Part shown: positions 3,920 through 52,123 of the stretch, one piece after another | Layout of the letters: each line of letters starts with the position of its first letter | Numbering within the stretch: the first letter of the stretch is position 1 | Assembly: GCA_903904755.1 (NCBI GenBank) | Contig: CAIVDV010000041.1 | Coordinates: 1-58,202 of the forward strand | From: an uncultured Acidobacteriaceae bacterium | Lineage (GTDB): Bacteria > Acidobacteriota > Terriglobia > Terriglobales > Acidobacteriaceae | DNA length: 58,202 nucleotides | Direction of reading: 5' to 3' | Translations under genes and position numbers: made by a program | The notes under the pieces: generated by a model | Seen by the model: the letters and a program-made list of their open reading frames with translations, nothing else | The model's database searches: none | Told to the model about the DNA's origin: nothing

Positions 3920-5131
3920 CTACGCCGCTATAGCTGAGAACGTGGCGTCAACACGCGACCGCATTGCATCCGTGTTGTCATCGCTGCCAGCAAGATACTT
4001 GAGCGTCGTCTCAAGACTGCTGTGCCTCAACCAACGTTGGATAGTGCGGACGGGAACTCCATTTTCAGAATGCAAAGTGGCGAAAGCCTTACGGAATTTG
4101 TGAGTCTTGTACCGCTTGCAAATGGGGGCGGTTGCACAGCAGCGACCGTGAGGATATGCCTTGCCGGGTTTGCACTGGCACTCGCCACAATTCAAGCCAG
4201 CTTTGAATGCCAGCCGTTTGATGATGTGGAGTATCTCCTTTTCCGGGTTACATACTGTCATGGGAAAAATGCGGCTACCTTTGGAGTTGGCTTTCCGTGC
4301 CTTGAGGCGGTCAACCAGTACGGCGGGAATCTTTATGCCACCCTCCTCCTTGTCCTTGGGTGTCCAGCCATCCTTTTCGCTGACATTGAATGTGCCATGA
4401 GCAAAGTCAACATCTGACCAAGTGGCATTCAAAGACTCTGCTTTTCTCGCCCCGGTCCCCAGCAAGAACCAAAGCAAATCCTTCTCATCCTCACTGCCGA
4501 CCGAGAGCATAGCTGAGATTTCCTCTTTGCTGTATGCTTTCACCAGTTTCTTGGTTGGCTTCATCCTGTCTGTCTTTTTGAGAGGCCAAGGCTGGTCATA
4601 GTAGGTGAGGAAAGTACGCAGATTGGTTAGATGGTGCGAAATAGTATAGTTTGAGTTTCCCTTGCCAATAAAGTAGTCTCTGAGGTTAAGTACATCCTCA
4701 CGAGTGATGCCCTCAAGAGTCCGCTTGGTGCAAACCTGTTTGAATATCCGCAACGCATACTCATACTGTACATACGTGTTGGCGGAGCGGGCGACTGAGA
4801 CACCAGCAAGGTAAGAGTCAATCGAAGCGCCAAGGTCGCGCCCCGTGGTGATAGGCTCCACAACCTGCACCCCGGCTTTTTGGCCGTCTAGGATTAGCTC
4901 CCGCTGGTGCTGACGAAGTAAAGCCTCCTGAGCGTCAGCCCCCACGGACTCCCAAACCCGCTTCTCGCCCCGGAGGTAGCGGAGATGGTAAACTCCCTCT
5001 TGGTGGTGTTCCGGCTTGCCCTTGACGACGGCGTACCCCGGCTTCAACTTCCGATTGGCGCTGTAGACTGGTTCGCAGAATGGGCGGCTCCCGTCCTGCA
5101 TTTTGATTCTGATGTACAGATGTGCTTTCAT
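3920..5131 (-). CDS. Tyrosine recombinase (phage-type integrase)
   Basis: 403 aa from the ATG at 5131, which has GGGAGAGGGAG just upstream; the longer 439-aa reading lacks such a site. Order: an N-terminal basic arm, a SAM-like core-binding domain (about 95-190) and the catalytic domain. Visible active-site residues are Arg229 (GTGARKAE), His344 and Arg347 (HKFR), His370 (LRHSS) and the nucleophile Tyr379 (LKYLA). An unusual Cys-rich insert (Cys315, 318, 320, 331, 332, 338) sits just before the HxxR box and could hold a zinc. It cuts and joins DNA by a 3'-phosphotyrosyl intermediate and probably moves the low-GC island at whose right edge it lies. No xis or att core could be identified. Confidence 0.9.
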   Translation of the reverse strand: MKAHLYIRIKMQDGSRPFCEPVYSANRKLKPGYAVVKGKPEHHQEGVYHLRYLRGEKRVWESVGADAQEALLRQHQRELILDGQKAGVQVVEPITTGRDLGASIDSYLAGVSVARSANTYVQYEYALRIFKQVCTKRTLEGITREDVLNLRDYFIGKGNSNYTISHHLTNLRTFLTYYDQPWPLKKTDRMKPTKKLVKAYSKEEISAMLSVGSEDEKDLLWFLLGTGARKAESLNATWSDVDFAHGTFNVSEKDGWTPKDKEEGGIKIPAVLVDRLKARKANSKGSRIFPMTVCNPEKEILHIIKRLAFKAGLNCGECQCKPGKAYPHGRCCATAPICKRYKTHKFRKAFATLHSENGVPVRTIQRWLRHSSLETTLKYLAGSDDNTDAMRSRVDATFSAIAA

Positions 5132-5279
5132 TGTCTCCCTCTCCCTCAAATACTGGGTTTTGGGAGCGGAAAACAGGCAAATCGAAGAAAAATGTAACAG
5201 CAGGTGTAACCATGCTGCCAAATCCTTTGTTTTCAACACATACTTTTAGTCGTGCCGGAAATGCCAGGGAGAAAAGCGT

Positions 5280-5764: not shown

Positions 5765-6574
5765 CTACTCGCCCAGCATCAGCCGCTGTATCCGGTACGC
5801 ACGGCCCGTCCGCGGATCCACGGAAATCACCGCCGCGCACATCTTCGGGTTCCCCGTGGCTGCCTCAAACTTCCCCGGCATCCCGGTCAGGAACCGGTTC
5901 AGCACCAGATCCTTCTCCACGCCAATCACTGAGTCATACGGCCCGCTCATTCCCACATCCGTCTGGTACGCCGTTCCCCCCGGCAGCACCCGCTCATCCG
6001 CCGTGGGAATATGCGTATGCGTGCCCAGCACCGCGCTCACACGCCCGTCCAGGTGCCAGCCCATCGCCACCTTTTCGCTCGTCGCCTCAGCGTGGAAGTC
6101 CACCAGAATCGTCTTCGCCGTCACCGTTGCCAGCGCGTCATTCGCAGCATGGAAGGGGTCGTTCGTGCCGTTCAAAAACACCCGCCCCATCAGGTTGATC
6201 ACGGCATACGGCTCGCCCGCGTTCGGCCCCCGCGCCACCGTGCCCTGGTACACCCCGTAGCCTGGCAAGCCGCGCTGCAAGTTCACCGGCCGCAGCACCC
6301 GCCGTGCCCGCTCGTGAGAGTCCGCCGGGACTGACTTCATGTACTCAATCAGCTCCCGCTTGTCCCACACATGGTTGCCCGTCGTGATTACATCCGCACC
6401 CAGCTCAAACAGCTCCTCGGCCAACCCCGGCGTAATCCCGAAGCCGCCTGCCGCGTTCTCGCCGTTGATCACCGTCAGGTCAATCTCGTGGCTCTCGCGC
6501 ACGTGCCCCAGGTGTTCACGCACAATCTTCCGCCCAGCCGAGCCAAATACATCGCCTACAAACAGAATCTTCAC
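5765..6574 (-). CDS. ymdB: YmdB-like metallophosphoesterase (TIGR00282 family)
   Basis: 269 aa, the usual length. All dinuclear-metal ligands of the YmdB family can be placed: Asp8, Glu39, Asn40, Asn67, His68, His161, His186 and His188 (motifs FVGDVFG, NGEN, TGNHVW, GTHTH). YmdB proteins hydrolyse 2',3'-cyclic nucleotides and affect RNase-dependent mRNA turnover in Bacillus; the role here is inferred from the family. The GTG start at 6574 overlaps the stop of the upstream four-helix-bundle gene (GTGA), so translation is probably coupled. The next gene follows after 3 nt. Confidence 0.9.
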   Translation of the reverse strand: MKILFVGDVFGSAGRKIVREHLGHVRESHEIDLTVINGENAAGGFGITPGLAEELFELGADVITTGNHVWDKRELIEYMKSVPADSHERARRVLRPVNLQRGLPGYGVYQGTVARGPNAGEPYAVINLMGRVFLNGTNDPFHAANDALATVTAKTILVDFHAEATSEKVAMGWHLDGRVSAVLGTHTHIPTADERVLPGGTAYQTDVGMSGPYDSVIGVEKDLVLNRFLTGMPGKFEAATGNPKMCAAVISVDPRTGRAYRIQRLMLGE

Positions 6575-6978
6575 AAAAGCTCCGGGGACTGAGGGACTGA
6601 GGGACTAAGGGACTTGCCTTTTCTTGCACGCAGAGATTTCATCAGGGCGCCAAGCAAACGACCAACATCACTGCAGAGATTTTCAGATGACTCCAGGGTC
6701 GCTGAATTGACAATCCCGAGTGCCTTTGCAATCACCATCTGTGTCTCCAACTCCGAGCAGGAACCGCGAGCGTGACCGACGAACTGCAGATACTCTCCCA
6801 TCGTCGCCCTGCCATAGCCCTCGGAAATGTTACTTGCGACTGAAACTGCGGCACGCCGCATTTGCGCCGTTAGGCCAAACTTCTCGGCTTCTGGGAATTT
6901 AGCGGTCAGCTTGTAGACTTCCACCGTCAATTGAATCGCCTTTTGCCAAACGACAAGGTCTTTGAATGATTGTCCCAT
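6571..6978 (-). CDS. Four-helix-bundle protein (S23/IVP-Avd family)
   Basis: 135 aa. The start FKDLVVWQKAIQL, the core LTAQMRRAAVSVASNISEG and the helix GEYLQFVGHARGSCSELETQ are hallmarks of the family found in 23S rRNA intervening sequences and, as Avd, in diversity-generating retroelements. It is a small basic helical bundle thought to bind nucleic acid. GGAGG lies 4 nt before the ATG. The last residues (SLSPSVPQSPELL) are encoded by the short octamer array at 6585-6614, and the stop overlaps the next gene. The gene sits inside two oppositely oriented octamer arrays between lysS and ymdB, as if the whole unit had been inserted. The family call is firm; its job here is not known. Confidence 0.88.
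   Translation of the reverse strand: MGQSFKDLVVWQKAIQLTVEVYKLTAKFPEAEKFGLTAQMRRAAVSVASNISEGYGRATMGEYLQFVGHARGSCSELETQMVIAKALGIVNSATLESSENLCSDVGRLLGALMKSLRARKGKSLSPSVPQSPELL
6585..6614. repeat. Short octamer array (GGGACTRA on plus), about 3.75 units
   Basis: Units at 6585, 6593, 6601 and a partial one at 6609. The plus strand reads GGGACTRA, whereas the long array at 7013-7304 reads CCCTYAGT on plus. The two are inverted copies flanking the four-helix-bundle gene. This copy is read as the C-terminus of that protein. Confidence 0.9.
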
Positions 6979-7012
6979 CGGTCCTCCAACAAACTTCCAA
7001 GATGCAGAACCA

Positions 7013-7304
7013 CCTCAGTCCCTTAGTCCCTTAGTCCCTTAGTCCCTCAGTCCCTCAGTCCCTTAGTCCCTCAGTCCCTCAGTCCCTTAGTCCCTCAGTC
7101 CCTTAGTCCCTTAGTCCCTCAGTCCCTCAGTCCCTCAGTCCCTTAGTCCCTCAGTCCCTTAGTCCCTCAGTCCCTTAGTCCCTTAGTCCCTTAGTCCCTC
7201 AGTCCCTTAGTCCCTTAGTCCCTTAGTCCCTCAGTCCCTTAGTCCCTCAGTCCCTCAGTCCCTTAGTCCCTAAGTCCCTCAGTCCCTTAGTCCCTCAGTC
7301 CCTT
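7013..7304. repeat. Long octamer array (CCCTYAGT), about 36.5 units
   Basis: 292 bp of uninterrupted 8-bp tandem units. Every unit is CCCTTAGT or CCCTCAGT except one CCCTAAGT near 7265-7272; only the fifth base varies. There are no spacers, so it is a minisatellite, not a CRISPR. Its right end forms the last seven codons and the stop of lysS. Its left end stops 34 nt before the four-helix-bundle start codon. Confidence 0.95.
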
Positions 7305-8910
7305 GCACTTCTCTGCGCATCAGCGGAAACAGAATCACATCCCGAATCGAGTTCGACCCGGTCAGCAGCATCGTCAGCCGGTCAATCCCGATGCCTTCTC
7401 CCGCCGTCGGCGGCAGCCCATACGCCAGCGCCCGCACATAGTCCTCATCCATCTGGTGCGCTTCGTCGTCGCCGCCCGCGCGCTGCGCCAGTTGGTCTTC
7501 AAACCGCTTCTTCTGCTCCAGCGGATCGTTCAGCTCGCTGAAGGCATTGCCCACCTCAAACCCGCCAATGAAGAACTCAAACCGCTCCACATGCGCCGGG
7601 TCATCCGGCTTCGCCTTCGACAGCGGCGAAACCTCCGTCGGGTAGTCGTAAATAATCGTCGGCTGGAACAGGTACGGCTCCACCACAGTCTCAAACAGGT
7701 GATAGATCGTCTTCCCCAGCGGCGTGCCCTTCGCTGCCTCAAACAGAATCTCCGTCAGGCTCCTCTGTATCTGCCCCTTGCCCGCCGCGCTCTCACTCGC
7801 GTCGCCTTCCGTGCCCGGCTCATCCAGCGTTGCCAGCGCCCGCTGCAAGAAAAGCTGCAGCGCCCCGGCATCCTCAAAGTGGTGCTTGTCCGGCCGCACT
7901 CCCGCCGCCTCCGGCCAGTGCGCCGCAATCGCCTCAGTCATCGTCAGCCGCTGCCACTTCGCCAGGTCAATGGTGTGCCCGTTGAACTCCACCACCGTCC
8001 CGCCATTCACTTCCCTGGCCACATACGTAATCAGCTCTTCGGTCAAGGTCATCAGGTCGTGATAATTCGAGTACGCCTGGTAGAACTCCAGCATGGTGAA
8101 CTCGGGATTGTGCTGCGTGCTCACACCCTCATTCCGGAAGTTCCGGTTGATCTCATACACCCGGTCCAGCCCACCTACCACCAGCCGCTTCAGGAACAGC
8201 TCCGGCGCAATCCGCAGATACAAATCCATGTCCAGCGTGTTGTGATGCGTCTTGAACGGCCGTGCCGCCGCGCCGCCGGCAATCGACTGCATCATCGGCG
8301 TTTCCACTTCCAGGTATCCGCGCCCGTCAAAAAACTGCCGCAGCGCCTTCAAAATCCGCGACCGCTTCACGAACACCGCCCGCGCATCCAGATTGCTGAA
8401 CAAATCCACATACCGCTGCCGATAGCGAATCTCCACATCCGCCAGCCCATGGAACTTCTCCGGCATCGCCAGCATCGCCTTCGCCAAAAACGTCAGCGTC
8501 TCCACATGCACCGTAAGCTCGCCGGTCCGCGTCCGGAACAGGTATCCGCTCACCCCAATGTGGTCGCCCAGGTCCAGCAGCTTGTACAGCGCAAAACCCG
8601 CCTCGCCCACCGCATCCAGCCGGACGTAAATCTGCAGCCGCTCGCCCTGCTGCTGAAGCACCGCAAAGCCCGCCTTGCCCTGCTGCCTGATTGCCATCAG
8701 CCGCCCGGCCACCGCCACCCGCGGCCGCACCTCATCCGCCAGCTCATTCAGCGTCTCCGCCGGCGTCTCGCCCCACTCCGCCCGTACCTGCGGCACAGTA
8801 TGGCTGGCAGGGAAGTGGTTCGGGTAAGCCGACTGGCCCAGCTCGGTAATCGACTGCAGCTTCTCCTGCCGCAGTGCAAACAGATTCCGCTCAAACTCTG
8901 AATCAAACAC
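7279..8910 (-). CDS. lysS: Lysyl-tRNA synthetase, class II
   Basis: 543 aa. It charges tRNA-Lys. The N-terminal OB-fold anticodon domain covers about residues 60-165. The class II catalytic domain shows motif 2 in the FRNEG/HNPEFTMLEFYQAY region and motif 3 as GIGIDRLTMLL near the end. It is longer than the usual roughly 500 aa because of a loop insertion around residues 345-395 (acidic, then Gly/Ser-rich). The chosen GTG at 8910 has AAGGA 9 nt upstream. The C-terminal GTEGLRD is read from the octamer array, which also provides the stop codon. LysRS normally ends shortly after the FPLMR-type motif, so this tail was probably added by the repeat. First gene of the minus-strand unit with the four-helix-bundle, ymdB and GNAT genes. 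Confidence 0.97.
   Translation of the reverse strand: MFDSEFERNLFALRQEKLQSITELGQSAYPNHFPASHTVPQVRAEWGETPAETLNELADEVRPRVAVAGRLMAIRQQGKAGFAVLQQQGERLQIYVRLDAVGEAGFALYKLLDLGDHIGVSGYLFRTRTGELTVHVETLTFLAKAMLAMPEKFHGLADVEIRYRQRYVDLFSNLDARAVFVKRSRILKALRQFFDGRGYLEVETPMMQSIAGGAAARPFKTHHNTLDMDLYLRIAPELFLKRLVVGGLDRVYEINRNFRNEGVSTQHNPEFTMLEFYQAYSNYHDLMTLTEELITYVAREVNGGTVVEFNGHTIDLAKWQRLTMTEAIAAHWPEAAGVRPDKHHFEDAGALQLFLQRALATLDEPGTEGDASESAAGKGQIQRSLTEILFEAAKGTPLGKTIYHLFETVVEPYLFQPTIIYDYPTEVSPLSKAKPDDPAHVERFEFFIGGFEVGNAFSELNDPLEQKKRFEDQLAQRAGGDDEAHQMDEDYVRALAYGLPPTAGEGIGIDRLTMLLTGSNSIRDVILFPLMRREVQGTEGLRD

Positions 8911-51805: not shown

Positions 51806-52123
<318 letters not shown>

Follow-up and report, generated by a model that had tools for sequence, protein, structure and literature searches.

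The locus between lysS and ymdB raises the question of what a gene of the S23/IVP family, the protein family of 23S rRNA intervening sequences (IVSs), is doing in a protein operon, enclosed by inverted octamer arrays. The window (the whole stretch of 58,202 nucleotides that was analysed) carries this block outside 23S rRNA. The initial annotation had read it as one inserted piece with the plan of an rRNA IVS. Our reading is that the block is probably a member of a widespread group of IVS-kind mobile units outside rRNA, in which an S23 gene sits within matched inverted arrays of 7- or 8-nt units.

The block between lysS and ymdB

On the minus strand, the order is lysS, a 292-bp GGGACTRA array, an S23/IVP gene (PF05635), a 30-bp inverted array, and ymdB. 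The first gene (7279..8910, minus strand; a class II tRNA synthetase match, read as lysS) has its stop and last codons in the long array, and its C-terminal tail GTEGLRD is array-coded. This 5' arm (7013..7304, minus strand) was resolved by TRF as 36.5 copies of an octamer that reads GGGACTRA on the minus (sense) strand. A GGAGG found by eye (6983..6987, minus strand) is the likely ribosome binding site of the S23 gene (6571..6978, minus strand), a four-helix-bundle gene that matches 23S_rRNA_IVP with an E value of 3.5e-36. The 3' arm (6585..6614, minus strand; TRF, 3.8 copies of the inverted octamer) lies within the end of this gene and encodes its C-terminal SLSPSVPQSP. The start of ymdB (5765..6574, minus strand; YmdB match) overlaps the S23 stop. 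The arrays and the family match bear out what had been claimed from the letters, namely an S23 gene between inverted octamer arrays that separate lysS from ymdB and supply 3' codons of both lysS and the S23 gene.

All 30 bp of the 3' arm have an exact complement in the 5' array (7033..7062, minus strand); other parts of that array may pair out of register. The RNA fold of the block is a continuous stem with S23 in the loop, and its MFE is −285.6, compared to −249.1 (sd 6.1) for 20 shuffled sequences (z −6.0). GGGACT occurs 64 times in the window, against a mean of 31.1 in 100 shuffles (sd 5.3, maximum 49). Three successive copies of GGGACTRA are present in two of 41 genomes, including the genome of the window (G000), where they are found at the lysS-ymdB locus and at three solo sites. 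The unit is 8 nt long, unlike the 7-nt units of STRR-type heptamer repeats.

In several relatives without a block, the lysS stop overlaps the ymdB start; in the window, the S23 stop does so. A GGAGC ahead of the ymdB start (6579..6583, minus strand; by eye) resembles the same stretch in the empty-site relatives G003 and G005, and the block therefore seems to be placed within the last lysS codons. A tyrosine-integrase-like gene (PF00589, window 3920-5239) is observed a few hundred bases past the ymdB-acetyltransferase genes, and the window also has a degenerate 6/18/30-bp tandem repeat region at 51894-52123.

The genome carries three S23 genes in total. The other two lie between ilvB and ilvN and between pheS and pheT (names as read from the translations), and their inverted arms have units of CAGAGAT and of an AGC-RRG-TT type; S23 copies within one genome thus carry differing units. 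All three genes read as co-directional with their neighbours. Matches to two successive CAGAGAT copies number 20 in G000, eight in G001, and zero in four relatives. Seven CAGAGAT solo arrays of G000 (L338, L344, L353, L354, L355, L356, L357) are followed by a common imperfect palindrome like CAGTTGGATCGAGCTGCGCTCGAT, which is a further dispersed repeat in this genome.

Inverted arms around S23 genes in other genomes

The S23 loci compared here come from three sources: relatives and the wider phylum (some of the listed matches), named GTDB records (the best 80 of 578), and viral contigs. Each was scored by the best ungapped inverted match between the 300 nt on either side of the gene. Of the 181 S23 genes taken from cellular genomes (with the best 80 of 578 named records among them), 147 are flanked by matched inverted arms of short tandem units. 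The remaining 34 have no arms by this score, a few of them because a flank was too short. Armed loci include those of Clostridia, a cyanobacterium, CPR, and archaea. The IVS plan of an S23 gene within inverted repeats, proposed for the window, holds here and is general, and the opposite case, that genes of this type elsewhere never accompany inverted arrays, did not arise.

In the own-phylum set (part of the matches listed), from which ten of 111 domain rows were dropped (partial matches and the duplicate L097), inverted arms score at least 14 at 88 of 101 loci and at least 16 at 84. Direct matches of at least 14 were found at 22 of the 101, and inverted pairs of at least 14 formed across loci in 28 of 600 cases. 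The named GTDB set (best 80 of 578; one locus dropped for a short flank) gave inverted arms of at least 14 at 60 of 79 loci (16 of 20 acidobacterial and 44 of 59 other), with direct matches at 14 of 79 and cross-locus inverted pairs of at least 14 in 20 of 600. For non-S23 genes of 240-700 nt located at least 900 nt from S23, 13 of 170 reach 14 and one reaches 16. Arms are also present at 36 of 43 viral-contig loci tested; seven of the 51 loci had been excluded as near-duplicates and one more for a short flank, and these IMG/VR contigs possibly include host DNA. S23 genes share the direction of their neighbours in 113 of 141 cases against a background of 317 of 480, moderately above and a rough figure, as the neighbours were called with gene-finding code of our own, which recovered 62 of 189 S23 genes. 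None of five short 23S motifs was found near any of the 181 S23 loci.

Arm units match within a locus and differ between loci. A search elsewhere for S23 genes with octamer arrays had been suggested; inverted arrays do recur, but the octamer itself is not general, each locus having its own 7- or 8-mer. The arm periods (n=138) are 7 in 65, 14 in 36, 8 in 20, 9 in three, 15 in three, and none in 11. A survey of 206 loci (1.73 Mb) gave 84 tandem arrays of period 7 near S23 and 59 far from it, and 20 and seven of period 8. The near and far counts for the comparison periods are 0 and 2 (period 10), 0 and 0 (11), 1 and 1 (13), and 1 and 1 (17), so that periods 7 and 8 stand out. We considered period 8 as the trait of one S23 clade and rejected this: the 20 period-8 rows require 16 changes on the tree (a count made without a shuffle comparison), and orthologous S23 genes differ, with 8 in the window and 7 in its G022 counterpart L047.

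The 5' arm is richer in G than in C (G-first) in 125 of 147 S23 elements, and the units most often keep AG as an invariant dinucleotide (41 of 88). S23-less paired arrays are divided into 12 G-first and nine C-first. The idea that the unit strand is always sense was dropped, because solo arrays flanked on both sides by genes of one strand are mixed (six sense-G, five sense-C, two neutral). The orientation of S23-less hairpins relative to transcription was abandoned as a measure since an inverted pair reads alike on both strands. By eye, several heptamer arrays in L228 (Candidatus Chloroploca) and L189 (Thiodictyon) are apparently inside reading frames.

Gene, arms and sites

The arms tend to travel with the gene. 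Units are shared in six of seven pairs at S23 tree distances below 0.3, in 52% of 21 pairs at 0.3-0.6, in 18% of 148 at 0.6-1.0, and in 2.3% of 6623 at 1.5-2.5. Among 75 close pairs (distance below 0.8), those at the same site comprise 13 with shared and 15 with changed units, those at different sites 14 and 29, and those with one homologous side one and three. The proposal that gene and arms form one block agrees with this decay of sharing with tree distance, and with the units that related S23 genes often share at different sites too.

Where units have changed at the same site (15 pairs), the arms have changed together. The mean pairing of an arm is 22.0 with its own partner and 13.2 when crossed (30 values each; the pairs are not independent, and some crossed values reach 30). 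For the window and its G022 counterpart, the own values are 30 and 27, and the crossed values are 8 and 10. The 5' arm of L047 is composite: five GGGACTA units are followed by a GGCATTA type, and the second kind alone matches the 3' arm. This may be a unit replacement in progress.

The S23 gene is kept by selection. Of 15 same-site pairs tested for dN/dS, eight were saturated at synonymous sites. Six of the seven measurable pairs gave values of 0.055-0.18 (two with dS above 2.7, near saturation), and the seventh, a very close pair (dS 0.02), gave 2.1. This conservation, together with arms that remain complementary while their units change, would suit a host regulatory device, in which S23 would bind the arms of its own element, the hairpin would set the ratio between the genes on either side, and the dispersed arrays would be additional targets. 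Against this, the sites vary widely, close relatives frequently have them empty, and a single genome can carry S23 copies with different units; we regard such a device as unlikely.

We inspected 26 lysS-ymdB loci by eye. Two have the S23 block, two an inverted pair without S23 (G001, G009), and one the 3' array alone (G002); one is ambiguous (G010), ten are empty, and ten have another upstream gene (among them G023, with a hairpin). No relative with the gene at this site and without repeats was seen. The suggested comparison with block-less loci thus yielded empty sites, but G000, G022, and L166 show occupation in at least three lineages, and the empty state is therefore not necessarily ancestral. 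At ilvB-ilvN, 14 same-genus loci comprise two with the S23 block, three with an S23-less hairpin (G009, G010, G011), and nine that are empty. The arms, which had been taken as part of the S23 block, are so at S23 loci but also occur without the gene.

The units follow the genome and not the site. AGCTTCT is present at both lysS-ymdB and ilvB-ilvN in G009, and CAGAGAT is present at both in G001, where the two 3' arms have 29 identical nucleotides. The unit of the G011 hairpin, AGTGTGA, is that of its S23 element elsewhere. Gene-less copies of the window unit are solo arrays (three sites); other units form hairpins in G001, G009, and G011. Of the arrays distant from S23, 41 are paired with an inverted copy and 23 are unpaired. 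Similarity of a far array to the S23 arm at its own locus was seen in 20 of 42 cases (nine of the 20 from one locus), against 23 of 630 comparisons with other loci. The arrays may be mere relics of S23 elements. In the lysS-ymdB hairpin of G001 (L148), a CACTGTT-type heptamer array is located in the loop of the CAGAGAT hairpin, as if it were a nested insertion.

Genome by genome, arrays and S23 show a strong association. Random S23-free stretches gave 15 arrays of period 7 or 8 in 610,091 bases from S23-positive genomes (nine of 40 genomes) and none in 637,968 bases from 39 S23-negative genomes (p 2e-5 by arrays, 0.0024 by genomes); 13 of the 15 came from the first 20 S23-positive stretches, which are from S23-rich genomes. 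Random same-genus stretches contained no arrays in either group. The G010 stretch, moved from the S23-negative phylum group to the genus group, is array-free, though this genome has arrays elsewhere. Among 396 acidobacterial genomes, three successive copies of TAGNGRC occur in 23, of which 21 have S23. CRGNGAT, the same motif read backward, was meant as a control; it is itself a heptamer motif and was used as a second one (31 genomes, 29 with S23). The two motifs combined mark 48 genomes, of which 44 have S23, compared to 143 of the 348 others (p 1e-11, uncorrected for kinship).

These distributions bear on whether the arrays are ordinary simple-sequence repeats, formed by polymerase slippage at operon junctions with S23 genes as passengers. 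A preference for heptamers due to the polymerase footprint was proposed in work cited in passages of PMC4692102. Heptamer arrays do exist with no S23 nearby and in some S23-less genomes: four of the 48 motif-bearing genomes lack S23, and G010 has heptamer hairpins and no PF05635 match, so arrays can exist without the gene. Slippage alone gives neither matched inverted arms around one gene family, with concerted change, nor the strong restriction of arrays to S23-positive genomes, and we consider this origin quite improbable.

An alternative is retroelement-like, with S23 as the Avd-type partner of a reverse transcriptase (RT) that is encoded elsewhere and copies hairpin RNAs into new sites. 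Avd of diversity-generating retroelements is a related four-helix-bundle protein, which PF05635 resembles (in passages of PMC10053308); the match of the window protein to bAvd is weak, at 29.6 bits against a cut-off of 40. RT (PF00078) is found in 29 of 58 S23-positive and 10 of 61 S23-negative genomes (p 1.7e-4), a correlation that the load of mobile genes could explain. G000 has two PF00078 matches, on other contigs. Half of the S23-positive genomes sampled have no PF00078 match, including G022, which has its own lysS-S23-ymdB block. An obligatory RT is therefore unsupported, and the retroelement-like scheme has a small chance of being right.

Relation to rRNA IVSs and heptameric repeats

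The probable reading, that of mobile IVS-kind units, has to be weighed against the 34 of 181 S23 genes without arms, the array-free same-genus stretches, the arrays of G010 and of the four motif-bearing genomes that lack S23, a co-directionality just moderately above background, and the 29 of 43 close different-site pairs without shared units, all of which count against it. According to passages of PMC4990558, the rRNA IVS of Coxiella burnetii has the heptamer GACAGAT two or three times in tandem ahead of its S23 ORF, and RNase III cuts within its stem. It shares with the operon S23 elements an ORF of the S23 family, a stem formed by terminal inverted repeats, tandem heptamers just ahead of the ORF, and the sense orientation with respect to the host transcript. 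Of these details, the tandem GACAGAT provides the best connection between the rRNA form and the operon form. The window block differs in that it lies in a protein operon, its arms are long arrays, S23-less copies are dispersed, and cutting is only proposed. The function and origin of the rRNA IVS and its S23 protein are described in part of PMC4990558 as still unclear more than 25 years after discovery.

For the operon form, we propose that units insert where an insert is tolerated, for example in gene tails or at operon junctions. Pairing of the arms in the transcript would give a hairpin whose loop contains S23. RNase III could cut this hairpin in the manner of rRNA IVSs, and the lysS and ymdB messages would stay usable. 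An insert cut out at an operon junction would harm neither message, much as rRNA works in pieces; operon insertions are probably tolerated because the hairpin can be cut from the transcript. S23, as a relative of Avd, would act in trans to spread or maintain arrays, in which case the S23-less hairpins would be non-autonomous copies.

REP/REPIN sequences and their RAYT genes offer a comparable organization, with a gene flanked by inverted repeats and dispersed gene-less copies of genome-specific sequence. The ends of S23 elements differ in being tandem arrays of a variable unit. We know of no transposase activity and no catalytic domain in S23.

According to passages of PMC4692102, the heptameric repeats described so far have no known role; they include GGGAATC in Xanthomonas, with 70 and 75 inverted heptamer pairs in two genomes of this genus, and GGGGA(C/T)T in Nostoc. 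STRR are located in hairpins of filamentous cyanobacteria (part of PMC2670836), and 7-nt repeats are located in the P6b stem of the trnL intron (part of PMC4476775). In the portions examined, these repeats resemble the S23 arms in being heptamer arrays, mostly intergenic and often in inverted pairs; they differ in that S23 is unmentioned there, and a search of the PMC4692102 text for 'S23' and 'four helix' returned zero hits. We found no link between S23 genes outside rRNA and inverted heptad arms in the open-licence PMC literature, and an earlier description elsewhere is possible. Heptamer arrays and rRNA IVSs are treated separately in the open-licence literature searched, and their link outside rRNA is apparently new. 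The inverted heptad arms at operon S23 genes tie rRNA IVSs to heptameric repeats and give the IVS a home outside rRNA, thus making questions on both testable in harmless cultured bacteria. Granulicella mallensis X5P3 is a cultured acidobacterium with an armed locus (L238).

A bolder and more tentative idea, which we hold to be possible but well short of probable, is that S23 is the missing agent of the heptameric repeats. The PDB relatives 2gsc and 2rld have five chains each; S23 would be a sequence-tolerant pentamer that measures out about 7 nt with each subunit, creates heptad arrays as well as spreading them, and keeps its own arms matched. The presence of arrays in some S23-less genomes counts slightly against this idea. 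If it is true, a single system present in bacteria, archaea, and phages would have produced heptamer repeats, the STRR hairpins of cyanobacteria, the P6b repeats of trnL, and rRNA IVSs. A figure on CRISPR-associated genes (in the portion of PMC10910872 seen) also lists '23S rRNA IVP' among its abbreviations, and tandem arrays beside S23 genes may explain its presence there.
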